Assembly: GCF_002160985.1 (NCBI RefSeq)
Contig: NZ_NFLQ01000003.1
Span: 124,001-188,000, forward strand
Source of the DNA: Lachnoclostridium sp. An118
Lineage (GTDB): Bacteria > Bacillota > Clostridia > Lachnospirales > Lachnospiraceae
Direction of reading: 5' to 3'
DNA length: 64,000 nt
Shown: positions 7,374-42,978 of the stretch, piece by piece
How the letters are laid out: the number at the start of each line of letters is the position of its first letter
Position numbering within the stretch: the first letter of the stretch is position 1
The notes under the pieces: generated by a model
Database searches by the model: none
What the model was told of the DNA's origin: nothing
The model's input: only the letters and a program-made list of their open reading frames with translations
Translations under genes and position numbers: made by a program

Positions 7374-8993
7374 TTAGGCTTCGGGCAAGTCAATCTTGCC
7401 GACAAAGCTGTAATAAATCTCAATGTCCTGCCTGCGGGTGCCGTTCTCGTCATAGCTACACTCATGCACGACGATTTTTTCAATCATTTCCCGCAAGAGG
7501 GTGGGGGTCAATTCCTCAAAGGCAAGGTGCTTTCGGACGATACCCATAAACTTTTCCGCGTTGACGGTGGCGGCCTGCGACTTGTCCAGTTCGGCCTGCA
7601 AAGCGGCGGCGCGGTCTTTCAGTTCCCGCTGTTCCTGCTCATAGTCTGCTGACAGTTCCATGAAACGCTCGTCACTGATTTTGCCGTTCACATTGTCCTC
7701 ATACAGCCGCTTAATAATGCGGCTCACTTCGGCAATGCGCTCCTGCGCCTGTTCAAGCTGCCTGGTGGTTGCGGCGGTCTTTCTCTTGCCGCCGATCTCG
7801 TTCTGCTGGATAAGCAGCTTCACAAAGCGGCTCTCATGCTTGGCGGCATACTCCGTCACTTGCCGGAGATTGGAGAGGACACCGGCGGTCAACAGGTCGG
7901 TGCGGATAAAGTGCGCCGTACAGTCGCGGGTGCGCTTCTTGTAGCTGCCGCAGATGTAACAGTCCTGCTTGCGGTTCTTGTTCTGATACCGCTGCTGGTA
8001 CATCACATGGCCGCAGTCGGCGCAGAACAGCATACCGGAGAACAGCCCCACTTCATCATAGCGGTTCGGGCGTTTGCGCTGCTTGCGTAACTCCTGCACG
8101 CGCTCCCATGTTTCCCGGTCTATGATAGGCTCATGGTGGTTCTCAAAAATGGCCTGCTTCTCCACGGGGTTCTCTACACTGTGTTTGACCTTGTAAGAGG
8201 GCTTTTCCGTCTTGAAGTTTACCAGACAGCCGGTGTACTCCCGGTTTTCGAGGATATGAACGACGGTGTTTGTCGCCCATTTACACTCATAGCCGGGGTG
8301 GTAGCGGCGTGTGCTGCCTGTCCTGCGGTATTCCAGCGTCCCCGGCGTGGGGATTTGCTGCTCCGTAAGCATACGGGCAATCTTGGTCGGGCCATTCCCG
8401 GCAAGGCAAAGCTGGTATATCTGCTGGACAACCGGCGCGGTTTCCTCGTCAACGATATAGTTCTCGTCCTCGTCCATGAGGTAGCCATAGACCGGCTTGC
8501 TGGTAACAGGCTTGCCGCTCATGCCTTTTGCTCGTTTTACTGCCTTGATTTTCTTGCTCGTATCTCTCACCAGCCATTCGTTGAACAGATTTCGCAGAGG
8601 GGTAAAATCGTTGTCCATGCTGCCGTTTGCGCTGTCCACATTGTCGTTGACAGCGATAAAACGCACTCCCTTTTGAGGGAACAGCATTTCCGTGTAAAAC
8701 CCTACCTGCAAGTAGTTTCGCCCTAACCGGCTCATGTCCTTGACTATGACGGTTCCGACTTTCCCGGCTTCAATGTCTGCAAGCATGGCTTGAAAACCGG
8801 GTCTTTGAAAGTTCGCGCCGGAGAAGCCGTCGTCGGTGTACCAGCGCAGATTAGTAAAGCCGTTCTGCTTGGCGTAGGTTTCCAAAATCCTTTTCTGGTT
8901 CGATATGGAATTACTCTCGCCTTGCAACTCGTCCTCATGGGACAATCTCGGATAAAGGGCGGTAATGAGGTTTTGGGTGGCTTGTCTTAACAT
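7374..8993 (-). CDS. Large serine recombinase (TnpX-like) of M1
   Basis: The 539-residue protein has an N-terminal resolvase catalytic domain (ALYPRLSHEDELQGES, catalytic serine at residue 18), the arginine-containing helix [15 protein letters not shown], a recombinase domain, and a zinc ribbon (CADCGHVMYQQR...CYICGSY, about residues 335-360). A coiled coil is followed by a C-terminal DUF4368-type region (IEIYYSFVGKID). It should excise M1 as a circle and reinsert it. It begins at ATG 8993 after GGAGG and ends about 90 bases from the M1 junction, as expected for the element's own integrase. Confidence 0.93.
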   Translation of the reverse strand: MLRQATQNLITALYPRLSHEDELQGESNSISNQKRILETYAKQNGFTNLRWYTDDGFSGANFQRPGFQAMLADIEAGKVGTVIVKDMSRLGRNYLQVGFYTEMLFPQKGVRFIAVNDNVDSANGSMDNDFTPLRNLFNEWLVRDTSKKIKAVKRAKGMSGKPVTSKPVYGYLMDEDENYIVDEETAPVVQQIYQLCLAGNGPTKIARMLTEQQIPTPGTLEYRRTGSTRRYHPGYECKWATNTVVHILENREYTGCLVNFKTEKPSYKVKHSVENPVEKQAIFENHHEPIIDRETWERVQELRKQRKRPNRYDEVGLFSGMLFCADCGHVMYQQRYQNKNRKQDCYICGSYKKRTRDCTAHFIRTDLLTAGVLSNLRQVTEYAAKHESRFVKLLIQQNEIGGKRKTAATTRQLEQAQERIAEVSRIIKRLYEDNVNGKISDERFMELSADYEQEQRELKDRAAALQAELDKSQAATVNAEKFMGIVRKHLAFEELTPTLLREMIEKIVVHECSYDENGTRRQDIEIYYSFVGKIDLPEA

Positions 8994-11013: not shown

Positions 11014-11400
11014 TCATGCGGGTTTGAAAGGCTCTAAAGCGTGACATTTCTGCCTTTGTTTCCGCTTTCTCTCGGCGGCTTTGAGTTTCTTCATGCGTCC
11101 GGCGCAGTCGGGGCAGTATTTTCCCCGGTTGGATTTGGGGACAAATGCCGCCCCGCAGACCTCACACCGTTTCCGGCTCCCCCGGTACAAGAGGGCTGCG
11201 GCCAGTTCCCCGTCAAGGGGCAGGACAGCCACACGGAACCAGCGGCACATGAGGGAAAGGGAAATGCTTTGGACGCACACGCAAGGCTCCCCGTCGTCTA
11301 ACAGCAGGCAGTTTCCCTCGTCGTAGTTACAGCACTCATGTACCAGCCGCCGCGCCCGCCGGTGCTGGCGGTAGTCCATGCGGGGCAGGTTATCGCTCAT
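11014..11400 (-). CDS. Cysteine-rich VLP-family protein of M1
   Basis: The 128-residue protein (ATG 11400 after AAAGGAG) contains YRQHRRARRLVHECCNYDEG, a C-V-C pair, and a C-terminal zinc-ribbon pattern CEVCGAAF...KYCPDCAGR with a very basic tail (KAAERKRKQRQKC). It overlaps the relaxase stop by 11 bases. The family is common beside relaxases in these elements. The basic tail and zinc site suggest nucleic-acid binding, perhaps in mobilisation. A close relative is at 23371-23769 in M2. Confidence 0.8.
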   Translation of the reverse strand: MSDNLPRMDYRQHRRARRLVHECCNYDEGNCLLLDDGEPCVCVQSISLSLMCRWFRVAVLPLDGELAAALLYRGSRKRCEVCGAAFVPKSNRGKYCPDCAGRMKKLKAAERKRKQRQKCHALEPFKPA

Positions 11401-13009
11401 GGCTCTGCTCCTTTCTGCGGTGGGGTTCCTCCCGGCGCAAAATCTGGTCGATGTTCCGCTTGACGGTCTGCAACTCCTTGAACCGCTGTTTCTGTTCGTG
11501 GTAGGTGTTATACAGGCCGTCTTTCTCGGAGATAAGCTGCTCGATCTCGGCCTGCAACGCTTTCCGGGCGGGCAGCTTGGTGATGCCATGCGCCTTGAAA
11601 TACCGGGCGGCGGCTTCGGCTATGATAAAATCGCTCTCGTTTGCCTGCCGGTAGGCGGCGCGGGCTTTCTCGGATTTCTGCGCTTTCAGCCCGTCGCGGG
11701 TGGGCTTGGTCTTGGCATAGGCAAGTACCTGTTGCTGCAACTCCTTTTTCCCTTGTAGCTTCGTTTCCAGTGCTTTCAGTTCGCCGCTGGTCTGGCGCAT
11801 TTCCTGATAGGCGGTATCAACGGCGGCTTCTAACTGCTCCGGGGAAGTAAAGCCGTATTCCTGATACACATTCAGCGTCGCGGCCATTTGTTTGAGGTTG
11901 TGCATGGTCGCCCAGCGTTCATAGCCCCGGCCTTTGCCCTCGGCCATTTTCTGCTCAATGTCCACAAGCCGCTGCACACCGTCCTGCTTCGGGGCGGTTT
12001 GTGGGGCTTTTGTGTTCCCATGCCGGGGGTATTCGAGTATGGCTGCGGCCTTTTCTGTGGCTCTGGCGGCGTTCTGCTCCAAAACGGAAAGGACAGCGGT
12101 GCGGTCAAAGTCGTCGCCCAGCTTCCGGGCGGTAATGGGCTTTGTCCTGTCCGGCGTGAGATAGGACAGCCGCCCCCGGCTCTCCTTGACGGTCACGCCC
12201 TCCCGCAGCAGCAGAGAGGAAAATTCGTCAAAGCTGGCGGCGGTGGCAAGGGCTTTCCGTATGGTCTGCCGCAGCTTCTCCTTGTTCGTTTCAAACTTGG
12301 TCTGCCGGGGCGTGATACCGCCTGCAATCATGGGGGCGTTCTGCTTGTCCAGCGCAGCCTGTCCCTTTTTCTGCGCCCAATACTCCCGGTCGGTCACGCG
12401 GTTCTTGCTGCCGTTCAAGAGGTCGATTTGGTAAAGCCCCTCCCGGTGGCACATCTCCATGACTTCGGATTTGAAGTAGCGCAAGGCAGCGTCGGTACAG
12501 CGGTGCTTGCAGCCGGCTTTCGTGTCGGCTGGCCTGTCCATGTAGGGCAGGAACGGTACTTCCTCTATCCGCAGGCTGTTAATGACGATATGCACATGGA
12601 TATTGCCGCTGTGGTTGTGGCCGTCCGGGTGGGTGCATACAAGGGCTTGGTGGCCGGGGAAATGCTCGGCGCAAAACTTCTCGCCCAATGCCTGCGCCCG
12701 GTCTACGGTCAAGCCGTTGTCCGGCCCGTCCCGTGGGTCAAAGCTGATGATATAGTGGTGGCTTTTCACATCTTCCCGCCGCTGGTTCTTCCCATAGCGG
12801 AGATTTGCCCGCATACAGGCAACGGCAAAATCCTCCCCGCCGCAGTTCAGCGTTGACAGCCGGTAGTCCTCGCGGGGGATAAGCCTGCCGGTTTCATCAA
12901 GGACGGGCTTCATGGTAAACTCGTCATGCTCAAAGAGAAGATATTGTTCGGCGGCTCCGTAGTCGGCGTTTTTAGAGTTGATATGCTTGAGTGTTGCCAA
13001 CTGCGTCAC
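11390..13009 (-). CDS. Relaxase, MOBP-type (Relaxase/mobilisation nuclease family) of M1
   Basis: The 539-residue protein has an N-terminal nuclease domain with the metal-binding HxH of the relaxase family (GNIHVHIVINS, about residue 140), preceded by HYIISFDPRD. A long helical C-terminal half follows. It should nick the M1 oriT and pilot the strand through a conjugation channel supplied by another element. Translation starts at GTG 13009 (or the TTG three codons later) inside the 3' end of mobC, so the two are coupled. Confidence 0.88.
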   Translation of the reverse strand: MTQLATLKHINSKNADYGAAEQYLLFEHDEFTMKPVLDETGRLIPREDYRLSTLNCGGEDFAVACMRANLRYGKNQRREDVKSHHYIISFDPRDGPDNGLTVDRAQALGEKFCAEHFPGHQALVCTHPDGHNHSGNIHVHIVINSLRIEEVPFLPYMDRPADTKAGCKHRCTDAALRYFKSEVMEMCHREGLYQIDLLNGSKNRVTDREYWAQKKGQAALDKQNAPMIAGGITPRQTKFETNKEKLRQTIRKALATAASFDEFSSLLLREGVTVKESRGRLSYLTPDRTKPITARKLGDDFDRTAVLSVLEQNAARATEKAAAILEYPRHGNTKAPQTAPKQDGVQRLVDIEQKMAEGKGRGYERWATMHNLKQMAATLNVYQEYGFTSPEQLEAAVDTAYQEMRQTSGELKALETKLQGKKELQQQVLAYAKTKPTRDGLKAQKSEKARAAYRQANESDFIIAEAAARYFKAHGITKLPARKALQAEIEQLISEKDGLYNTYHEQKQRFKELQTVKRNIDQILRREEPHRRKEQSHER

Positions 13010-13370
13010 CTACTTTCTTGAGGACTTCATACTTGAGGGCGGCAAGGTCGGCTATGGCGGCGCGTACCTCGCCGGACAGCGCATTGTAGGGTGAGCCGTA
13101 CTCGTTCAGATACCGGGCAATCTGATTGAGGTTGCCGCCGATCCTGCCGTACTCGGCGGCCAGCTTCCCGACAGCGGAGAGCAGTTCATCATTGACCGCC
13201 GATACATGGACAACGGGGCGTATGGTCGTGCGCCGTATCGCCTGCCGGAGAAATTCCGACTGGCTGATACCATAGGGCGCAAGCCGCGCTGTGAAGTCGG
13301 CGTATTCATCTTCGGACAGCCGGGTTTTCACAACGCGGCTGCGGTGGGGCGTGTTGTATTTCTTTCGCAT
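12972..13370 (-). CDS. mobC: MobC-like relaxosome accessory protein of M1
   Basis: The 132-residue protein (ATG 13370 with GGAGG) has a basic ribbon-helix-helix-like N-terminus (VVKTRLSEDEYADFTARLAPYG) and the MobC signature GGNLNQIARYLNEYG. MobC proteins bind oriT beside the relaxase and open the nic region. The overlap of 38 bases with the relaxase gene and the position directly after the candidate oriT fit this role. Confidence 0.88.
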   Translation of the reverse strand: MRKKYNTPHRSRVVKTRLSEDEYADFTARLAPYGISQSEFLRQAIRRTTIRPVVHVSAVNDELLSAVGKLAAEYGRIGGNLNQIARYLNEYGSPYNALSGEVRAAIADLAALKYEVLKKVGDAVGNTQAYQL

Positions 13371-13570
13371 AGGCTGAAAACCTCCTCTCACTATTCTTAT
13401 TGCTGACTTTTTTCGGATTTTGGGCGGAGAAAATTTCCTCTCACTCCTCCCATTGCTTAACTTTTCGGGAAATTACAAAAACTTTTTTTTGCATTTCGGC
13501 AGAAAAATCCCTCTATACCTCCCATTGGGCAACTTTTTGGAAAATAACAAAAACTGTTTTCAGCTTTTTC

Positions 13571-17403: not shown

Positions 17404-19323
17404 TTACGTTATTTTCTGAAACATATGCCGAACCTTATCTAAACGGCTGTTAGGACGGCGTGGCTGCAATACAGGCTCCCCGGAAATTTCTTGGTACCCT
17501 TTTAATTCGGTAAGGCAGACGCTTCTCCCATTTGTATAAAAATTTAAATCATTCCTATATTCGCCGATGCAGCGGGCGGGGATTTCTCCCGTAAAAATAA
17601 CTTCATCATTTTTAAGCAAGGTTGATTCAATCACTGCACAATACTTCGGTGCGTCATTATAAGCCCGTGAAATATATTCCTGCGGTGCAAAAAGGGTAAA
17701 GGAAAGGTATGGTTCCAATAATTGTGTTCCTGCTCTTTTCAATGCCTGTTCTAACACGATAGGAGCAAGGGAACGAAAATCTGCGGGGGTACTAACTGGA
17801 CTGTAATAAACTCCATAGTCAAAACAAATTTCACAATCTGTCACTTCCCAACCGTATAAGCCTTGCTCCATTCCATAACGCACCCCTTCCATAACGGCAT
17901 TTTGAAAACTTTGGTTTAAATAGCCGAGAGATACTTTGCTTTTAAACCGGGTTCCACTTCCGGCAGGAAGTGGCGTTACAGTTAAGCCAATGGATGCCCA
18001 AAACGGATTCGGCGGCACTTCAATATGAATCGTGTAACTGGCTGTTTTTAATGGCCTTTCCAGATAAATGACCGTAGGTTCTTTCACATTTATGTTCACA
18101 TGGTATCGCTCTACTAACAGAGAGCATACAACCTCTAACTGGACTTTTCCTAAAAAAGAAATGATGATTTCATGCGTTATCGTATCCACATAGTAATGCA
18201 ACAGCGGATCTGTATCTGCAATTTCCGTCAGGGCATTCAGCAGGAGGTCTCTTTGTTCCTGATTTTGCGGCTCCACCGTCGTCCGAAGCAAAGGAATCGG
18301 ATTTTTTTCCCATGCCTTGCGCGGCAAAAGTTCTACATTTCCGAGAGTATCATTCAGCTTCAGAGTGTCATTGGTCAAAATAACAATTTCTCCGCAACAG
18401 GCTGTGTCCGCCGGTATAATCTCTCCGTTTGACGGAATCCTCATTTCTGTGATTTTTAGTTTTTGATTTTGGGGCAGGAGAATCGTATCCCGTAAATGAA
18501 GTGTCCCGCTGTATAACCGCAAATAAACGAGCCGCTTTTTCTGGTCTGTGTACTCGATTTTAAAAACGCTTCCGCATAGCTCGGATTGATCGTTGTCCGC
18601 ACCAGAAGTAAATGTTTCTGCAATCACTTCAATCAGCTTTTCAGTTCCGATATTGTTCTTTGCACTCCCATGATAAATAGGAAACAGGGAACCGTTTTGC
18701 ATTCTTCTGCATTTCTCCCTCTGTAAATCTTGTATTTTCAAAGGTTCCCCCGCAATATATTTTTCCAAAAGTTCATCATTTCCAGCAATAATAGAATCCC
18801 ATTTTTCTATATCCTCAATGTCTGTCAGAGACACTTCCGGAGTGAGCGAAACATCTTGCATAACCATGACATCATCAGAAAGTTTTTCTCTGATATTTTG
18901 ATAAACGCTCTGTAAGTCAATGCCCTCCTGGTCTATCTTATTTACAAAAATAATCGTTGGGATTTTCATTTTCTGGAGCGCATGGAACAGTACCCGTGTT
19001 TGTGCCTGCACGCCGTCCTTTGCGGAAACTACTAAAATTGCTCCGTCAAGAACAGCAAGTGAGCGATATACTTCCGCCAAAAAGTCCATATGGCCGGGGG
19101 TATCGACAATATTGATCTTATAATTCTTCCAGCCGAAAGAAGTGACGGCCGTTTGAATGGTAATCCCACGCTGGCGTTCCAACAGCATGGTGTCTGTCCG
19201 CGTTGTTCCCTTATCTACACTCCCTAATTCCGGAACGGCTCCGCTGGTATAGAGCAGGCTTTCTGTCAAAGTCGTTTTTCCTGCGTCTACATGAGCAAGA
19301 ATGCCGATATTGATTATTTTCAT
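17404..19323 (-). CDS. tet: Tetracycline-resistance ribosomal protection protein, Tet(O)/Tet(W)/Tet(32) group
   Basis: The 639-residue GTPase related to EF-G removes tetracycline from the ribosome. The G1 motif AHVDAGKTT lies at residues 10-18, with DTPGHMDF (G3) and NKID (G4). The C-terminus [19 protein letters not shown] is the conserved end of the family. Start ATG 19323 follows GGAGG; the in-frame ATG five codons earlier is within the leader. It is recognisably close to Tet(W) and Tet(O) but differs from my recollection of both at many positions. The exact class needs a database comparison. Expression is controlled by the upstream attenuator. Confidence 0.95.
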
Positions 19324-19362
19324 GTGTTTGTCCTCCATTCAGCCCCCAAAGGGCATAAAAAT

Positions 19363-21645: not shown

Positions 21646-22509
21646 TTACTCATGCTTACGGTTTACAATGTCTTTTGCCGCCTGCTTGGTGGCCCCGGCG
21701 TTTTCCTCCCGGAAGTTCTTCCCGGCAAAGAGGATCGGGGCGCACCGTTCCAGGATACGGTCATAGATGCGGGCGTGGGCCAGGTCAGGCGGGTTCTTGA
21801 GTTCGGCCAGCTTCAGGTTGGTGGTGATAATCATGGGCCTGCGGCTGCGATAGCGGCTGTCAATGACGAAAAACATCTGCTCCATCGCATACTCGGTACT
21901 GCGTTCCACACCCAAATCGTCAATGATGAGCAGGTCGTACTCGCCAAAGCTGGCGATAAAGTCGGCCCTGTCCTCAGAGAACATCCCCGTCAGGCGGTTC
22001 AGGATGGTGGGAAAGTTCGTCATCAGCACCGGCACATCCCGGTCAAGCAGGGCATTGGCGATACAACCGGCGAAAAAGGACTTGCCGGTTCCCACATCCC
22101 CAAACAGCAGCAGGCCGGTGTTGTTTCGGTATGCCTCCTTCCAGTTCTCCACATAGGCGCGGGCCTTGTCCATCAGGGGATTTTGGCCGTTATCGTTGGC
22201 AAAGGTGTAGTCGTACAGATAGCGGTCTTGCAGGCCCTGGGCCTTCCGGCGCTTGATACGCTCCATGCGGCGCTGCCGTTCCTCGGCGGCCTTGCGCTGT
22301 TCCTCGGCCTCCCGCTGGCACTGGCAGATACAGCGGGGCATGAAGTAGCCCGGTTTCCCAAAGCATGGCACAACGGTCTGCCTCTGGCCGCCGCACTTCT
22401 TACAGTGAATGAGTCCGTCTGCCGGGTCTATGTACTCGTCCCCGGCCAGTTCCATACCGGCGGCTGCCTTGTCGATCAGCGCCCGGATTTCTGCGGTAAT
22501 CTCAATCAT
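21646..22509 (-). CDS. DnaC/IstB-like ATPase (helicase loader type) of M2
   Basis: The 287-residue protein has a Cys motif CKKCGGQRQ...CICQCQ in the N-terminal part, a charged coiled segment, then Walker A GDVGTGKS (about residue 138) and Walker B LLIIDDLG. Its start overlaps the Rep stop (ATGA, 22506-22509). It resembles the M1 protein at 9308-10150 throughout, so this replication pair has moved as a unit. Confidence 0.88.
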   Translation of the reverse strand: MIEITAEIRALIDKAAAGMELAGDEYIDPADGLIHCKKCGGQRQTVVPCFGKPGYFMPRCICQCQREAEEQRKAAEERQRRMERIKRRKAQGLQDRYLYDYTFANDNGQNPLMDKARAYVENWKEAYRNNTGLLLFGDVGTGKSFFAGCIANALLDRDVPVLMTNFPTILNRLTGMFSEDRADFIASFGEYDLLIIDDLGVERSTEYAMEQMFFVIDSRYRSRRPMIITTNLKLAELKNPPDLAHARIYDRILERCAPILFAGKNFREENAGATKQAAKDIVNRKHE

Positions 22510-23258
22510 ACGGTTTCATCCTCCTTTACGCTGTAATCCCGGTTGCGGGTGGACGGGGCCGCTTTCCTGGCGTCCTCGCTGGCCCAGCGCCGGATGGTGG
22601 CGGCATGGCTCTGATACCGCTTGCCGGTAGAAGCCATGTACTCGGACAGCTTTTCGATGTACTGGCCCCATACGGTGGGAAAGCTGGCCTGCAAGTCTGC
22701 CAGTTCCTCGTCCGTCAGGAAAACATTCTGGTAACGGCCATAGGCGCGGGCGTTCTCACTCTCTCTATTCTCTATACTCTTATCTCTAATATCTAATCTC
22801 TTATCTCTAATCTCTGGTGGACAAATGTCCCCCCGGCTATATGGTGGACAAATGTCCGCCCCGCCGGATGGGAGCAGCTTTTGACGCTTCAATCGCATAC
22901 GCTCTTTCTTTTTCCGTTCCCCCTCGGTAGAGGACTGGCCGATCAGCAGTTGGATGTCGGCCATGTAGTAGGCCCCATCGGTCAAAATCTCCACAAGGCC
23001 AAATTCAAGGAACACCTTCAAGGCCCGTTCCACCGTCCCCACCTGATGGCGGGTAAAGGTGGCGATGGTCTGGGGCGTGTGGGGCAGATGGTCGTTGAGC
23101 ATGAGAATGCCGCCGCTTTTGAGTGACATGAGGTACATTTTCAGCAGCAGATTGGAGTACAGCAGGCCATCCTGCATACTCTCCAAAATAACCATCGTTT
23201 CGCTGTTGTAGAAGTTTTCTTTCAGCTTGAGATAGTAATATTTTCGATTGTCTGACAT
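22506..23258 (-). CDS. Replication initiator-like protein of M2 (replisome-organiser N-terminal domain)
   Basis: The 250-residue protein starts at ATG 23258 behind AAGGAGG. Residues 1-110 form a winged-helix domain (KYYYLKLKENFYNSE...TIATFTRHQVGTVERALKVF) of the kind found in phage replisome organisers and RepA_N initiators. The linker (about residues 125-170) is encoded by DNA repeats, and the C-terminal AYGRYQNVFLTDEELADLQ region is shared with the M1 Rep. It probably directs replication of the M2 circle. Confidence 0.82.
   Translation of the reverse strand: MSDNRKYYYLKLKENFYNSETMVILESMQDGLLYSNLLLKMYLMSLKSGGILMLNDHLPHTPQTIATFTRHQVGTVERALKVFLEFGLVEILTDGAYYMADIQLLIGQSSTEGERKKKERMRLKRQKLLPSGGADICPPYSRGDICPPEIRDKRLDIRDKSIENRESENARAYGRYQNVFLTDEELADLQASFPTVWGQYIEKLSEYMASTGKRYQSHAATIRRWASEDARKAAPSTRNRDYSVKEDETV
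22777..22857. repeat. Iteron-like and AT-rich repeats inside the M2 rep gene
   Basis: Two copies of TGGTGGACAAATGTCC (22815-22830 and 22842-22857, 27 bases apart) each contain GGACA/TGTCC arms. Beside them CTCTTATCTCTAAT occurs twice (22777-22790, 22798-22811) within a run of related AT-rich hexamers. Iterons next to an easily melted tract are the usual make-up of a replication origin. Confidence 0.75.
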
Positions 23259-23370
23259 GGGTTCCTCCTTGGGTTCGTTTTGGGCTTCTGTGCGCATTTA
23301 GAGGGCCGTTTTGGGGGCCAGAGGATAAATCTATCAGGCCCCCGCCGACACCCTCGAAAAAGTCCTTGAT

Positions 23371-24024: not shown

Positions 24025-25470
24025 TTACCGTTCCGGCCCCCGGTCATGGGACTTGTCCTGTCCCTGGCGGGCCAGTTGGTCGGCGGCCTTGCGGAGCCGT
24101 TCAACGGCTTTCAGTTCCTCCCGCATGGCCTTCATGTCGATGGTGTCCACCTGCTTCTGGGCGGTCAGCAGGTCAATCTCGCGCTGCCATGCCTTGGGGG
24201 TGATTTCCTCGCCGCTGTCCTTCAGTTCCTTCAGATACCGGGCCGCCGCGTCATAGAGGATCAGTTCCCGGCTGTGGCGCTGCTCAAACAGTTCCCGCTT
24301 CTCCGGCTTTACCTTGGCAAGCTGCTTATGGACAGCCTTGTACTTGTTGTACTGCGCCCACATCTCCCCGCGCTCAGTGAGGACAGCGATCCGGCGTTCG
24401 GCCTTGACAATCCCTCGCCGCAGGTCATAGTAACGGGTGTTCATACCGGCAATTTTTTCATGGAGCTGCTGCATGGACTGGATGCCGTTTGCCTGCATAA
24501 AGCTGAACAGGGCGGCGCTCTCCTGCAACGCCCGGATTTTGCCGGTGCGGGTGTCAGGCCGCTTGAGCTGCTGCTGGGCCTCCCACAACTCAATCATGCT
24601 GGGCTGCTGGCCCTCCGGCTTTTCCGCCTCGGCCTTAGACCAGTTGTAGAGGCGGGTAATGCGGGCCTTGATTTCCTTGAGCAACCTGTTGTCGGCGGCG
24701 ATCTGCCGGTTGACTTCTCCCTTGTCGGTGCGGATACCGCGCTTCTCCATCTGGCTGGCCGCTGGCCCCAGGTGGACAGAGGGGATTTTATCAATGCCTT
24801 GTCGCTTGTAGCTGCGGTGGTCTACCAGGGCAGGCTGACCGGCGGCCTCCAACGCCCGGTTGGTATAAGCCGCCCATGCCGCCCGCCAAATCTCCACATT
24901 CCCTTTGTCGTTCCAGTCGGTGGTGTCCTCCCGGTGGTTCTTCCAGCCGCCTTTCCCATCCGGGATACGCTGGCCGTTTTCGTCCAGGTCGTATGCCTTG
25001 CGGCACTTCGCGCCCCATGCGCCATTTTCTTTCAGGGGCCGGACGGTCAGCATGATATGAACATGGGGGTTGCCGGTTCCCTTGTCATGGATGGCAAAAT
25101 CAGCGCACATCCCCTTGTCCACAAAGTTATCCTTCACATAGGCCCGGACAAGGGCAAGCTGCTGTTCCCTGGACAGTTCGCGGGGCAGGGCCGCCTCGAT
25201 CTCGCGGGCAAGCTGGCTGTCCCTGGCTTTCTCGATCTGCTCCACACTGTTCCAGAGGGTAGAGCGGTCTGCAAACTCTGGCGGGGCGTGGGCGGGCAGC
25301 ATGATTTCCGCATGGACAACGCCGCCCTTCCGGGTGTAATCATGGGTCAGGCCGTCCCATTCATTCGTCAGTTTGGTTCCGCTTCGGTAGGCGGCTGCGG
25401 CAACAGCGGAACGGCCCTCGCTGCGCTTGATGATACTGACGGGGATATGACAAAAATCTATGGGTGGCAC
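24025..25470 (-). CDS. Relaxase, MobA/MobL family (MOBQ) of M2
   Basis: The protein of about 481 residues begins ...IDFCHIPVSIIKRSEGRSAVAAAAYRSG, the MobA/MobL signature. The metal-binding HxH lies in GNPHVHIMLTVRP (about residue 128), followed by a long helical tail. The open frame extends far upstream, but that part covers the oriT. A clean start is missing: GTG 25470 overlaps the AAGGAGG site, and an ATA codon at 25461 has better spacing. It should nick at the TAAGTGCGCCCT site at 25632 and is unrelated to the MOBP relaxase of M1. Confidence 0.9.
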   Translation of the reverse strand: MPPIDFCHIPVSIIKRSEGRSAVAAAAYRSGTKLTNEWDGLTHDYTRKGGVVHAEIMLPAHAPPEFADRSTLWNSVEQIEKARDSQLAREIEAALPRELSREQQLALVRAYVKDNFVDKGMCADFAIHDKGTGNPHVHIMLTVRPLKENGAWGAKCRKAYDLDENGQRIPDGKGGWKNHREDTTDWNDKGNVEIWRAAWAAYTNRALEAAGQPALVDHRSYKRQGIDKIPSVHLGPAASQMEKRGIRTDKGEVNRQIAADNRLLKEIKARITRLYNWSKAEAEKPEGQQPSMIELWEAQQQLKRPDTRTGKIRALQESAALFSFMQANGIQSMQQLHEKIAGMNTRYYDLRRGIVKAERRIAVLTERGEMWAQYNKYKAVHKQLAKVKPEKRELFEQRHSRELILYDAAARYLKELKDSGEEITPKAWQREIDLLTAQKQVDTIDMKAMREELKAVERLRKAADQLARQGQDKSHDRGPER

Positions 25471-25551
25471 CTCCTTCCGGCGGGGATACTTCAGGCTCCG
25501 TGGAGCCGAACAGACGCGAAGCGGGTGTTTGGCTGCGCGGGGCGCACAAGG

Positions 25552-25655
25552 GGTTTGGGGAGTGTAGCTCCCCATCGCGCTCAGAGAGCGCAACAGCCCC
25601 CGGCAGGGCGCACGGCACCGGCAACGGTGTATAAGTGCGCCCTTGTAAACAAGGG
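25552..25655. other. oriT of M2 with RSF1010-like nic sequence
   Basis: TAAGTGCGCCCT (25632-25643) is the nic-region core known from RSF1010/R1162 and related MOBQ systems. A stem-loop CACCG-GCAA-CGGTG (25616-25629) lies directly beside it, as in those origins. A second perfect repeat CCCTTGT/ACAAGGG (25640-25655) overlaps it, and a GGGGAG/CTCCCC hairpin follows GGGTTTGGGG at 25551-25573. It is placed directly upstream of the cognate MOBQ relaxase gene, which strengthens the call. Confidence 0.88.
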
Positions 25656-25657
25656 AC

Positions 25658-25954
25658 TTACGGCTTGTCCCCGGATTTCGCCAGTTTTGCGGCCAGTTCC
25701 GCCGCCCCCGGAAGATGGGACAGGGCAATCAGGAACGCCTTGACCTCTACGCCGGGAAGGTCGGGGGCCAGAGGAAAAATGCCCTCCAAAATGGCCCCGC
25801 GTTCAATCAGGCGGCAGGTGCGGGCCTTGCGTTCCTCGTTGCGCTGCTTGTTCTCCAAAATCTTCTGGCGGTTCTCAAGCTGCCGGATTTCCTTCAGGAC
25901 TTCTTCGCGCTCGTCTTTTTTCTGTTTCGCTTGGGTGGTGATTTCTTTGTGCAT
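25658..25954 (-). CDS. DUF3847 family protein
   Basis: The 98-residue protein starts with a long charged helix (EEVLKEIRQLENRQKILENK), probably a coiled coil, then CRLIERGAILEG and a short amphipathic C-terminus. DUF3847 proteins are regularly found directly upstream of MobA/MobL relaxases, and here the gene ends at the edge of the oriT. It may be a relaxosome accessory, which is inference. Confidence 0.82.
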   Translation of the reverse strand: MHKEITTQAKQKKDEREEVLKEIRQLENRQKILENKQRNEERKARTCRLIERGAILEGIFPLAPDLPGVEVKAFLIALSHLPGAAELAAKLAKSGDKP

Positions 25955-25980
25955 ATCGCGTCCTCCTTCAGCGGCTCCAT

Positions 25981-26436
25981 TCAGCCGCGCTTGATAAAAT
26001 ATTTCCGCAGTTTCAAAATGGCGTCCCGGACGGTATTGGTAACAAGGCTCACACTGGCAATCCCCTCGTCCTCTGCAATCTCCCGGTACTTCTTGCCCTC
26101 CACAAAACGGGCGTGCAGGCGGCGGGCCTGCGTGGGCGTTAAGGTGGCAAGGGCCTCCCGGAGCCGCTGCAACATCAATTCATGGGCTTCTTCTTGTTCC
26201 CGGCGTGTTTCTTCTTCCAGCAGAGTGTCCTCAGCGGAGAGGGCGTGATAGAGCAGGTGATATTCCAGGCCGGGGGAATAGTCCATCGAGTAAGTATGGC
26301 TCCATAGCCGCTGCTCGGAGTTATGGTCGGTGCGCCATTCCTCCACGATGGCGTCGGCAATCTCGTCCGGCAGTTCGATGAAGGTGTCTGTTTCGTAGAG
26401 GGGGTAATAATACTTTTTCAGGTTGATGGTTTTCAT
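25981..26436 (-). CDS. Sigma-70-like protein, copy a (151 aa)
   Basis: The protein begins MKTINLKKYYYPLYETDTFI, the same opening as the two following paralogues. It ends with a sigma-region-4 HTH (LTPTQARRLHARFVEGKKYREIAEDEG...RDAILKLRKYF). ATG 26436 overlaps the stop of copy b as ATGA. It may act as an ECF-type sigma factor or as a region-4-only regulator; a region-2 match is weak. Confidence 0.8.
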   Translation of the reverse strand: MKTINLKKYYYPLYETDTFIELPDEIADAIVEEWRTDHNSEQRLWSHTYSMDYSPGLEYHLLYHALSAEDTLLEEETRREQEEAHELMLQRLREALATLTPTQARRLHARFVEGKKYREIAEDEGIASVSLVTNTVRDAILKLRKYFIKRG

Positions 26437-26894
26437 AGGCCGCTTGTCCATTTCCGGCGCTCAAAGTACCGACGCAGCCGCCGGAGCGCCGCATGGATGG
26501 ACTTCCCCGCCTGGGATGGGGTGATACCCTCCATCGCGGCAATGTCCTTCACTTTCATCCCCAGCATATACCGGGCATGGACGCGCCGGGCCTGCGCTGG
26601 GGTCAGAGAGGAAATCGCCTCATAGAGCCGCCGGAGCAGTTCGGCATATTCGGCCTGCGCCTCCTTTTCCATCAGGCAATCCTCCGGCGATGGCTGCGCC
26701 CAGCCGATGGCGGCGTTCTCAATCCCATCATTGCAGTCAAGGGAGTAAAACGCCTTGTAGCGGTACATCTTGCGCTCCCTGGCGGCCTCGGCCCGCTTGT
26801 CCAGCAGGAACGCTTCAACGATTTCATCCGACACCTCCACAAAGGTGTCCTCGGTGCAGAACGGGTAATATTGCTTGAGGTTGATCGTCTGCAT
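26433..26894 (-). CDS. Sigma-70-like protein, copy b (153 aa)
   Basis: It starts at ATG 26894 (MQTINLKQYYPFCTEDTFVEV); the frame upstream only reads copy c out of phase. The middle part (ARERKMYRYKAFYSLDCNDG) and the HTH (LTPAQARRVHARYMLGMKVKDIAAMEG) align with copies a and c. It overlaps copy a by four bases, and copy c ends ten bases upstream, so all three are one operon. Confidence 0.8.
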   Translation of the reverse strand: MQTINLKQYYPFCTEDTFVEVSDEIVEAFLLDKRAEAARERKMYRYKAFYSLDCNDGIENAAIGWAQPSPEDCLMEKEAQAEYAELLRRLYEAISSLTPAQARRVHARYMLGMKVKDIAAMEGITPSQAGKSIHAALRRLRRYFERRKWTSGL

Positions 26895-26904
26895 AGGCCC
26901 GCCC

Positions 26905-27357
26905 TCACTCTGCCGGAAAAAGGCAGTCATAGCAGCGGCGCATATTCCGCAGGCCCCGCCGGATGGCAACGCTGACCTTGCTGCTGTGTACGCCCTCCCT
27001 CCGGGAGATTTCCGGCTGGCTGATACCGGCGATGTAGTAGGCCCGGACGCGGCGGGCCTGTGTGGGGGTGGCATGGGCCAGGGCCTCCGGCAAAGCAGCC
27101 AACAGCCGCAGATGGGCGGCCCGTTCCTCGCGCTCCAAAAGAATTTCCTCCGGCGATCTGCCGTGTTCCAGCGCGTAGTTCTCCGTCCAGCTATATGCGT
27201 CCAGGGAGTAGTAGGCGCGGTGGTAGACCTTCCGGCGCTCATAGTTGTTCATCTCGCGCTGGGCCTGCCGCATGACCTCCCAAACCTCATCGCTGACCTC
27301 CACAAACTCGTCATGCCGGTAGTGGGGATAAATCCACCGCAGATTGATTGTTTTCAT
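26905..27357 (-). CDS. Sigma-70-like protein, copy c (150 aa)
   Basis: It starts at ATG 27357 behind AGGAGG with MKTINLRWIYPHYRHDEFVEV. The body and HTH (ATPTQARRVRAYYIAGISQPEISRREGVHSSKVS) match copies a and b, but the recognition-helix residues differ. Different target promoters are therefore likely. Confidence 0.8.
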   Translation of the reverse strand: MKTINLRWIYPHYRHDEFVEVSDEVWEVMRQAQREMNNYERRKVYHRAYYSLDAYSWTENYALEHGRSPEEILLEREERAAHLRLLAALPEALAHATPTQARRVRAYYIAGISQPEISRREGVHSSKVSVAIRRGLRNMRRCYDCLFPAE

Positions 27358-27460
27358 AGGCTTACCTCCTGAAAATGGGAGAGGCGGGCAGCTTGTCCGC
27401 TGTCCGCCTCCCGCTGGGATAAGGGAAACAATCCCTTTCACTTGGTAGCCCGAAAACAGG

Positions 27461-27874
27461 TCATTCGTTAAGCCTGTTTTCAAAGAAATTTATAAATTTT
27501 TTTCTGACTGCCTCCACACTCTGATACACGGCCACTTTGGAGCAGCCGCACACTGTCCCGATCTCTGCAAGGGTCAGCCCGTCCAGGGCATAGAGCAGGA
27601 ACCGGCGGCGCTGGGCCTCGGTGCAGGTGTCCAGGACGGCCATCAGCTCACCCAGCGTTTCCATGCGGCAAAGATATTCCTCTGGCGTTTCGCCGTAGAT
27701 ACCCACGCCCTCGGTGGCAACTATGTATTCGTCAAACTCCCGGCCATCCCAATGCCGCCGCTGCTCATGGGACAGGTTCTCGGCTTTGTGGTCGGCCCGG
27801 TCAAGAAATTCATAGACTTCCAGCGTAACCTCCACGGCCACAGCTTGTCCGTTGTAATTGATGGTGACTTCCAT
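27461..27874 (-). CDS. Sigma-70-like protein, copy d (137 aa, more distant)
   Basis: It begins MEVTINYNGQAVAVEVTLEVY and carries FDEYIVATEGVGIYGETPEEY and a region-4 HTH (LDGLTLAEIGTVCGCSKVAVYQSVEAVRKKF). It shares the overall plan of copies a-c (short N-terminal motif, acidic middle, HTH) but little direct sequence. It is the first gene of the sigma cluster; about 100 bases separate it from copy c. Confidence 0.78.
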   Translation of the reverse strand: MEVTINYNGQAVAVEVTLEVYEFLDRADHKAENLSHEQRRHWDGREFDEYIVATEGVGIYGETPEEYLCRMETLGELMAVLDTCTEAQRRRFLLYALDGLTLAEIGTVCGCSKVAVYQSVEAVRKKFINFFENRLNE

Positions 27875-33637: not shown

Positions 33638-33673
33638 ATTAAGGGTGCGGAGAGTATTCCCCGCACCCTTAAT
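33638..33673 (-). terminator. Terminator after TnpV
   Basis: Perfect 13-base arms ATTAAGGGTGCGG / CCGCACCCTTAAT enclose a 10-base loop. The TnpV stop codon lies at the start of the stem. On the minus strand it ends in TTAATTAAATCG, so it should separate the recombinase-TnpV transcript from the two-component genes. Confidence 0.75.
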
Positions 33674-34026
33674 CACTCCATGATAATTTCTGTAATGACT
33701 GTTTCCTCCGCCTGTGCTTTCAGTGTGTTCATCAGCCCCACCCAGCGCATGGGGTCACGGGCTTTCAGTTCCTCGGTCACGCCCGCCGCCTCCATCATGC
33801 GGGGCAGCATGGCGTCCATCCGTTCACGCGCTGCCCGGTCAACCTCTAACAGGTGCGGGTACAGCTTTTCGCTCAAAATCAAGCTGCTGTAAAGGCTGGG
33901 CCGGTGTTCCTTCAGGTAGCGTTGCCGCATACGGCCATACTTGCCGATGGGAGCCTCCGGCTGCTCGGAAAGTTTCAGGTCGGGGATGTAGTAATCCCCG
34001 CAGCGGGTGTAAGTCAATTCGCTCAT
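33673..34026 (-). CDS. tnpV: TnpV family transposon protein
   Basis: The 117-residue protein MSELTYTRCGDYYIPDLKLSE... has the conserved TnpV opening and PIGKYGRMRQRYLKEHRPSLY. ATG 34026 is seven bases from AAAGGAG. TnpV proteins accompany TnpX-like recombinases in Tn4451-type elements; their function is not settled. It follows the recombinase gene by 26 bases. Confidence 0.85.
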   Translation of the reverse strand: MSELTYTRCGDYYIPDLKLSEQPEAPIGKYGRMRQRYLKEHRPSLYSSLILSEKLYPHLLEVDRAARERMDAMLPRMMEAAGVTEELKARDPMRWVGLMNTLKAQAEETVITEIIME

Positions 34027-34052
34027 GTTCATTCTCCTTTGCACTGTGATGG

Positions 34053-36019
<1,967 letters not shown>

Positions 36020-41981: not shown

Positions 41982-42374
41982 TTAGCGCTTGCTGAACTGC
42001 GGAGCGCGACGGGCAGCCTTGAGGCCGTACTTCTTACGCTCTTTCATTCTCGGGTCACGTGTCAGATATCCGGATTTCTTCAGGACCGGTCTGTAGTCAG
42101 CGTCTACCTGAAGGAGAGCTCTTGCGATACCATGACGGATAGCGCCTGCCTGTCCTGTGTATCCGCCTCCCTTTACGTTGACCAGCACGTCAAACTTGCC
42201 GTCTGTCTCTGTTGCAACGAGGGGCTGGCGAACGATGACCTTCAGTGTCTCCAGTCCGAGATACTCGTCGATATCTCTCTTATTTATTGTGATCTTACCT
42301 GTTCCAGGTACTAAATATACTCTTGCGATAGATTTTTTTCTTCTTCCTGTTCCATAATATTTTGATGTAGCCAT
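41982..42374 (-). CDS. rpsI: Ribosomal protein S9 (bS9/uS9)
   Basis: The 130-residue protein has the full family pattern: [19 protein letters not shown] near the start, [19 protein letters not shown] in the middle, and the conserved C-terminus ending QFSKR, which reaches the ribosomal P-site. It is the second gene of the rplM-rpsI operon, 28 bases after rplM. The gene is complete, so ICE-A did not truncate it. Confidence 0.98.
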
Positions 42375-42402
42375 TTCTTAATATCCTCCTTTCGACCTCT
42401 GA

Positions 42403-42831
42403 TCAAAACTTCAGCTCTTCCGGCTTCTGAGCCTGATGCGCATGCTCTGCCCCAGCGTATACGTGAAGCTTCTTGATCATGCTTCTTCCTAAAGGTCCCT
42501 TCGGAAGCATTCCCTTAACAGCCAGCTCGATCACCTTCTCCGGCTTCTTGTTCATCATCTCTGCCAGAGTAGTCTCTTTCATCCCGCCTACATACTCGGA
42601 ATGATTGTAGTAAATCTTCTGATTTAACTTCTTGCCTGTTACTTTTACATCCTTTGCGTTGATCACGATCACGTAATCACCAGTATCGATATGCGGTGTG
42701 AATTCCGGTTTGTTCTTTCCTCTTAAAACCTTAGCTACTTCTGATGCTAAACGTCCTAATGTATAATCTGCAGCGTCAACTACATACCATTTTCTCTCAA
42801 TCTTGTCTGGACTAGCCATATAAGTTTTCAT
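42403..42831 (-). CDS. rplM: Ribosomal protein L13 (uL13)
   Basis: The 142-residue protein [20 protein letters not shown]..., with [38 protein letters not shown] and [12 protein letters not shown], is a typical L13, an early-assembly protein of the large subunit. ATG 42831 follows AGGAGG; the nine extra codons upstream are leader. First gene of the operon. Confidence 0.98.
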
Positions 42832-42978
42832 TGGTTTACCTCCTGTGAATTGGTTCACTTACTATAGAAACAATATGAAATGTTATATTGAAAGCAGCCA
42901 GGTTCCGGGGCTTTGGTGCCTGCTGTTTCTCCTTTTGTCATACTGCATTATTATATTATACGCATCCACGTGTGTCAA
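42832..42978 (-). promoter_or_regulatory. Promoter and leader of rplM-rpsI
   Basis: TTGACA (42978-42973), 17 bases, TATAAT (42955-42950) on the minus strand form a consensus vegetative promoter. The leader contains a hairpin with AGCAG/CTGCT arms around CACCAAAGCCCCGGAAC (about 42890-42925), which could be an L13 autoregulatory leader. That second point is inference. Confidence 0.88.

Follow-up and report, generated by a model that had tools for sequence, protein, structure and literature searches.

The nick site of RSF1010 is given as TAAGTGCG/CCCTCCC in the available part of the account of that origin (PMC4814116). A review, as excerpted, places pGO1, pSK41, pMRC01, and pIP501 in the IncQ-type relaxase family and mentions two inverted repeats, IR-1 and IR-2, at the pIP501 origin (PMC4981023). 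For pMV158, the portion of the report at hand describes a hairpin (IR1) nested in a longer repeat (IR3) whose right arm has the nick just at its 3′ end, and a shift from IR3 to IR1, brought about by MobM, that exposes the nick (PMC5863519). Among integrative mobilizable elements, Class_IME_5 comprises those in which a PF03389 relaxase is found with a serine integrase and without a coupling protein (PMC5357655).

Here, we describe a locus within a 64-kb window (the whole stretch of DNA that was analyzed) that is very probably a MOBQ origin of transfer, the cut site of a mobile antibiotic-resistance element of gut bacteria. The features of the origin, at 25552 to 25655 and just around it, and of the element are the following.

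25599 to 25608, plus strand: U, a mini-hairpin of 3 bp (CCC-GGCA-GGG) that ends directly 5′ of CGCAC
25605 to 25613, plus strand: left outer arm, AGGGCGCAC, 9 nucleotides, a perfect complement of GTGCGCCCT
25616 to 25629, plus strand: central hairpin, CACCG-GCAA-CGGTG, two bases (TA) before the core
25632 to 25639, plus strand: nic core, TAAGTGCG, with the predicted nick at 25639/25640
25640 to 25655, plus strand: D, a hairpin (CCCTTGT-AA-ACAAGGG) that begins at the first base past the predicted nick
24025 to 25470, minus strand: MobQ-family relaxase gene, whose start codon is uncertain (the GTG at 25470 is one option)
25658 to 25954, minus strand: gene for a DUF3847 protein, which ends 2 bases past the D hairpin
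33673 to 34044, minus strand: TnpV-family protein
34053 to 35933, minus strand: large serine recombinase (Resolvase, Recombinase, Zn ribbon, and DUF4368)
21646 to 23297, minus strand: replisome organizer and helicase-loader-like pair of the element (22506 to 23297 and 21646 to 22509)
17404 to 19338, minus strand: cargo, a tetracycline resistance ribosomal protection protein of the TetM/W/O/S family

The original prediction had named an RSF1010/pSC101-type core, a hairpin before it, and a MOBQ relaxase beside it, and we found all three; the repeats that it listed (CACCG-GCAA-CGGTG and CCCTTGT/ACAAGGG) are likewise present where it had placed them, while the U hairpin and the left outer arm had escaped it. 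The relaxase scored 276.5 bits against the NCBIfam model for MobQ (NF041496; cut-off, 200), carries the Pfam domain MobA_MobL (PF03389), and had only two PDB matches, 4ht4 ("Nicking enzyme") and 2ns6 ("Mobilization protein A"). Its gene adjoins a core of the form TAAGTGCG^CCCT with an inverted repeat just 5′ of it, which is the composition of a MOBQ origin. Because the core is identical to that of RSF1010, the nick is expected at 25639/25640.

The surroundings may be those of an integrative mobilizable element of the Class_IME_5 kind: a PF03389 relaxase and a serine recombinase are both present, and the recombinase is likely the integrase of the element. The element had also been predicted to be a mobile element of Firmicutes, and the serine recombinase, the TnpV-family protein, and the relatives of the relaxase bear this out: in the named records listed, these relatives are from Bacillota, with a few titles that say only "Bacterium." DUF3847 may be a possible relaxosome accessory protein, which we offer as a lead only; its match to IncQ1 MobC was weak (BLASTP E value of 0.13; hhalign E value of 0.014, probability of 3%), and against pSC101 TraD there was no BLASTP match and an hhalign E value of 0.0066 (probability of 6%). 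Four adjoining short genes with sigma-70 region 4 domains lie before DUF3847 (25981 to 27874). To the left of the MOBQ element (7374 to 8993 and 11390 to 13391) there are a second serine recombinase, a MOBP-type relaxase, and a NikA/MobC-like gene, which are perhaps part of a larger conjugative element. At 41982 to 42858, beside ParB and DUF6017 genes, we recognized rpsI- and rplM-like ribosomal protein genes by eye from their translations; these mark the chromosome, and an insertion next to rpsI is possible.

The longer core, TAAGTGCGCCCT (plus strand, 25632 to 25643), has a single exact copy in the window, and the five sites there with up to two mismatches are the number expected by chance. 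Elsewhere in the genome there is one further exact copy; as about 0.4 copies of a 12-mer are expected by chance per 3.47 Mb, TAAGTGCGCCCT alone is not significant. What makes the core significant is its recurrence beside relaxases: 97 of 110 loci fetched by relaxase hold it with at most one mismatch (the copy in the window counted), these loci being 80 kept of the 126 found in a first relaxase search plus 30 from a second. GTGCGCCCT, the right-hand partner of AGGGCGCAC, occupies 25635 to 25643, and a 9-nucleotide match of this kind has a chance of 0.00055 per 60 nucleotides; a perfect stem of at least 6 bp that starts exactly at the nick has a chance of 0.0026, given the local base composition. 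The part of the left outer arm that is kept among relatives is CGCAC (25609 to 25613), which is separated by GG from the central hairpin, and its partner GTGCG (25635 to 25639) lies inside the nic core, so that the core doubles as the right outer arm. Read on the opposite strand, CGCAC and the U hairpin beside it become GTGCG followed by CCC-TGCC-GGG.

Comparison with relatives revealed that this layout is conserved: a U hairpin, CGCAC, a central hairpin, TATAAGTGCG, the nick, and a D hairpin, in that order. Among 49 distinct origins (an earlier set without L005, plus further origins), D begins exactly at the nick in 42 and U lies at the mirror position, directly before CGCAC, in 41; the shuffle means were 5.3 and 5.7, respectively, and the largest value reached in 500 shuffles was 13 of 49. 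Origins were also counted by cluster. The finder returned no candidate in 7 of 135 loci, 12 of the 128 candidates were set aside before counting, and the remaining 116, together with the window, were grouped into 37 clusters at 85%. A D stem of at least 4 bp was found at the nick in 24 of the 37 clusters versus 2 at each of the three preceding positions (shuffle mean, 1.1), and a U stem of at least 3 bp in 31 (shuffle mean, 4.6).

What is kept in D and U is the layout and not the sequence, and both vary by paired changes. The first base past the nick is C in all 49 origins and the remaining bases of the D arm vary, with 19 distinct kinds of arm for D and 12 for U; several D stems and all but six U stems are just 3 bp long. 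Loops of D have 3 bases in 20 of the 42 cases, 4 bases in 18, and other lengths in 4. The central hairpin is replaced in relatives by unrelated stems. A close pair illustrates the pattern: L017 and L004 are 89 to 95% alike in their flanks, but CCATTC..GAATGG in the former replaces CCCTTG..CAAGGG in the latter. An alignment made with MAFFT (A1) was left out of the pair counts, loop lengths shifting the arms in it, and the cross-pairing of unlike arms, being empty by construction, was left out of the evidence.

One Lachnospiraceae group is without D. In all, D is missing in 7 of the 49 origins (L055, L056, L067, L068, L098, L132, and L135); L067 and L068 represent 12 loci of one group that has CCGTTGGATTTTT. 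U is missing in 8 of the 49 by the test used; for two of these, L146 and L203, the reason is that the test picked another arm. A tyrosine-recombinase element lies inside a MOBQ origin in Lachnoclostridium sp. An14 (L005:1-2840 and L232); both of its junctions are at GGGCGCA of the core, and such an insertion would split the origin. L005 had been considered as a case of a fully replaced D hairpin, and this was rejected: the far side carries phage-integrase-family genes (two tested and a third by eye), and L232, from the same genome, joins DUF3847 to the other end, which identifies the intervening DNA as an insertion.

The earlier finder required exactly complementary arms, and the arms were therefore counted solely in a set chosen by core alone. 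Of 392 genomes of the order, 65 have a site that matches the pattern GTATAAKTGCGCC; 91 sites were listed, versus about 32 (hand count) for a backward control. We read 90 of the 91 (omitting that of the window), of which 81 were unique, 36 with a relaxase nearby and 45 without. Where a relaxase is nearby, a GTGCG core goes with a CGCAC arm at 23 of 24 sites, and a TTGCG core goes with CGCAA at 12 of 12 and with CGCAC at none; CGCAA also occurs somewhere in the searched stretch for 8 of the 24 GTGCG sites. A D stem of at least 4 bp was found at 32 of the 36 sites with a relaxase nearby versus 4 of 44 without, and three of those four (L188, L196, and L198) look like real origins. For U, the figures were 31 of 35 with a relaxase nearby versus 7 of the 10 arm-bearing sites without. 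The 45 sites without a relaxase nearby are mostly chance, and some may be real origins. Six loci, L003 (G000:C24:12959), L214, L219, L220, L222, and L226, carry origin-like palindromes with a CGCAC arm or a near match to it, a stem, and GTGCG, with no MOBQ relaxase match within the fetched stretch; L003 has the exact core, and its stretch occurs only once in the genome that carries it.

To count events, we used a relaxase tree of 72 rows, built by a quick method, which assumes that origin and relaxase are inherited together; pair states were counted for rows with a perfect hairpin only. The minimum number of state changes was 5 for D pair 2, 10 for D pair 6, 11 for U pair 1, and 10 for U pair 2, all of them between Watson-Crick states, while presence changed at least 6 times for D and at least 8 times for U. 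Core letter and arm letter changed twice each, with one independent pair on supported branches. The covariation of the outer arms (CGCAC/GTGCG) is thus striking, yet it rests on very few events. The genome of the window contains a second MOBQ relaxase, 41% identical to the first (G000:C10:68449-69867, L125), whose origin has the core TAGTTGCG and the arm CGCAA, so that two origins with different core letters occur in one cell.

The comparisons show the layout, where it sits relative to the core, and its maintenance through paired changes; the nick, folding of the DNA in vivo, and a switch between two forms are what we infer. The central hairpin, by analogy the classical relaxase-binding repeat, would be bound by the relaxase together with single-stranded TATAAGTGCG of the plus strand, which would be cut at 25639/25640. 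In the core-only set, every site with a relaxase nearby (36 of 36) has the core on the strand opposite the relaxase gene, which would therefore be the last part to be transferred; transfer would start with D at the head of the strand, by analogy with RSF1010. In a closed form, CGCAC would pair with GTGCG around the central hairpin, with U and D bracketing this outer stem; the nick would fall exactly where the outer stem adjoins D and would hence be masked, not being single-stranded. In an open form, only the central hairpin (and D) would be formed, leaving the nick single-stranded within the relaxase. The change from closed to open would be driven by the relaxase, perhaps together with DUF3847. 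D and U would make the outer stem end at the nick and would stop neighboring bases from forming other pairs, and they could act in initiation or in strand re-closure in the recipient. A DNA folding program applied to the window preferred the outer and central stems and lost D, because D and the outer stem both use CCCT. In the available part of the RSF1010 work, MobA cuts oligonucleotides with just 7 nucleotides past the nick (PMC4814116), so D would be dispensable for cutting there. Taken as a whole, the locus is in our judgment best explained, with reasonable but not high probability, as the oriT of a MOBQ integrative mobilizable element with such a closed/open fold.

Other readings of the repeats account for some of the same observations. 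The palindromes could be double-stranded sites for a dimeric protein (the relaxase, DUF3847, or a regulator) instead of hairpins; CCCTTGTAAACAAGGG is a near-perfect palindrome and looks like an operator, and at pIP501, according to the excerpted review, the relaxase binds oriT repeats that overlap a promoter (PMC4981023). We consider such duplex sites unlikely, as the arms diverge widely among relatives yet remain complementary, spacers of 3, 4, or more bases would turn the half-sites around the helix, and 3-bp stems with 3-nucleotide loops make poor operators. It is also conceivable, though we doubt it, that the outer arms do not pair and that CGCAC serves the relaxase as a second half-site, on the opposite strand, which would make the origin a pair of inverted GTGCG-plus-hairpin modules for two relaxase molecules. 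GTGCG is followed immediately by a hairpin on both strands, and the swap from GTGCG/CGCAC to TTGCG/CGCAA suits one protein at both sites as well as it suits pairing; however, the TATAA spacer between the stem and GTGCG is absent on the other strand, where there are 0 to 3 bases in the window's group.

A structured leader of the relaxase mRNA, transcribed from the minus strand, would likewise give paired changes, and the U and D stems alone are strand-neutral; in the window, the stretch indeed sits between DUF3847 and the relaxase. That the fold works in RNA is nevertheless very unlikely, given that two genes separate origin and relaxase in L131, that the origin precedes DUF3847 in L128, that core and relaxase match are 149 to 1422 bases apart across 36 sites, and that 25400 to 25800 has no Rfam match. 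Inner wobbles of the central stem also favor the transferred strand, where 5 cases are G-T, versus 0 on the other strand (few, and partly related). For U, the ratio was 5 to 1 in favor of the transferred strand, three of the five being in one related variant, and for D there was no signal (2 cells, one in L005, which has the insertion), so that wobbles are weak evidence of strand. Two further RNA roles for the second repeat were considered and rejected: as a terminator of DUF3847 (no run of T follows, and the sole terminator-like site in 25300 to 26100 is elsewhere) and as a known RNA (no Rfam match in the interval above). Finally, D would head the transferred strand and might serve as a priming or single-strand promoter site that is first into the recipient; most stems, however, are 3 to 8 bp and unrelated in sequence, which is short for a primase or polymerase, and we regard this role as highly improbable.

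A wider form of the folding-origin reading, which we put forward tentatively and would not yet favor, is that an undescribed self-folding design is common to MOBQ origins, from those of gut Clostridia to that of pSC101, or, more boldly, that their two GTGCG-hairpin modules are inverted half-sites for two relaxase molecules. In the shared design, two hairpins of free sequence would bracket an outer stem built from the nic core, with the nick phosphate at a helix junction; selection would keep the fold and not the hairpin sequence, and the fold would gate both cutting and re-closure. It seems to be new that MOBQ origins keep, by paired changes, a hairpin beginning at the nick together with a mirror counterpart directly ahead of CGCAC. 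In the literature searched, as far as its text was available, we found no account of a nick-starting hairpin kept in this way at MOBQ origins; older work on R1162, pSC101, pGO1, and pIP501 was outside the scope of the search, and an earlier description is possible.

If the reading is correct, the fold defines requirements of a MOBQ origin beyond core and hairpin, and it becomes testable what DNA folding contributes to nicking and re-closure. It also yields a search rule, a hairpin of any sequence at the nick mirrored by one beside CGCAC, which would locate unannotated origins adjoining MobQ relaxases in gut Clostridia. The element bears a tetracycline resistance gene, and its near relatives (relaxase at least 87% alike) are spread over many genera. 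Plasmids of Campylobacter coli (L128 and H8) carry a related MOBQ relaxase, DUF3847, and the same origin layout, which is transfer beyond Firmicutes.

Among described plasmids, pSC101 (MOBQ, L235) has, like the origin in the window, TAAGTGCG^CCCT, the identical arm AGGGCGCAC, a U of 3 bp, and its own 9-bp D repeat, CCCTGATAA/TTATCAGGG, which starts exactly at the nick. It differs in the sequences of its stems and loops and in its accessory gene, which is annotated TraD and not DUF3847. The IncQ1 plasmid TY474p3 (L171) shares the core, the nick position, a GCGCAC arm, and a U hairpin (CTC-TCC-GAG), but its D hairpin (CCCTAC-AAA-GTAGGG, 6 bp) starts 5 nucleotides past the nick, and 48 nucleotides, which include a second small stem, separate its arm from the core. 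The window is not an RSF1010/IncQ1 origin proper, as it has DUF3847 beside the origin where such an origin would have a MobC gene along with the IncQ1 repeat sequence. In the Firmicutes plasmid pSK41, the exact core is preceded by a hairpin and CCC-TTAC-GGG (3 bp) stands at the nick, but the arm is just 4 nucleotides (GCAC) and U was not found. The RSF1010-type core that the original prediction reported in Firmicutes is thus real but not unusual, being already known from pSK41. The claim that the classical origin lacks the second repeat was wrong: of four classical plasmids compared, pSC101 has such a repeat of 9 bp, the IncQ1 plasmid one of 6 bp, and pSK41 one of 3 bp, and the fourth, pMRC01, has neither D nor arm. 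In smaller comparisons, pO111_4 has the arm, U, and a D of 3 bp, and pCSTC2 has the arm and U and no D.

Outside MOBQ, the pWBG749/MOBMG origins have a MOBP-type relaxase, the core CTTATGCTCTT, and repeats that adjoin the core, and no nick-starting hairpin is described in the available part of their report (PMC4652767); as in the window, however, structure is kept while the repeat sequence changes, and a branched hairpin is described (PMC4652767, in the same part). pMV158 (MOBV1) has another relaxase family and another core, so that the window, with its MOBQ relaxase, is not a member; the third repeat of pMV158 spans the nick rather than starting there, and the excerpted account describes no U hairpin. 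In layout alone, the two origins are alike, both having nested repeats whose outer right arm has the nick at its 3′ end, and by this analogy the origin in the window may work like the switch origin of pMV158.
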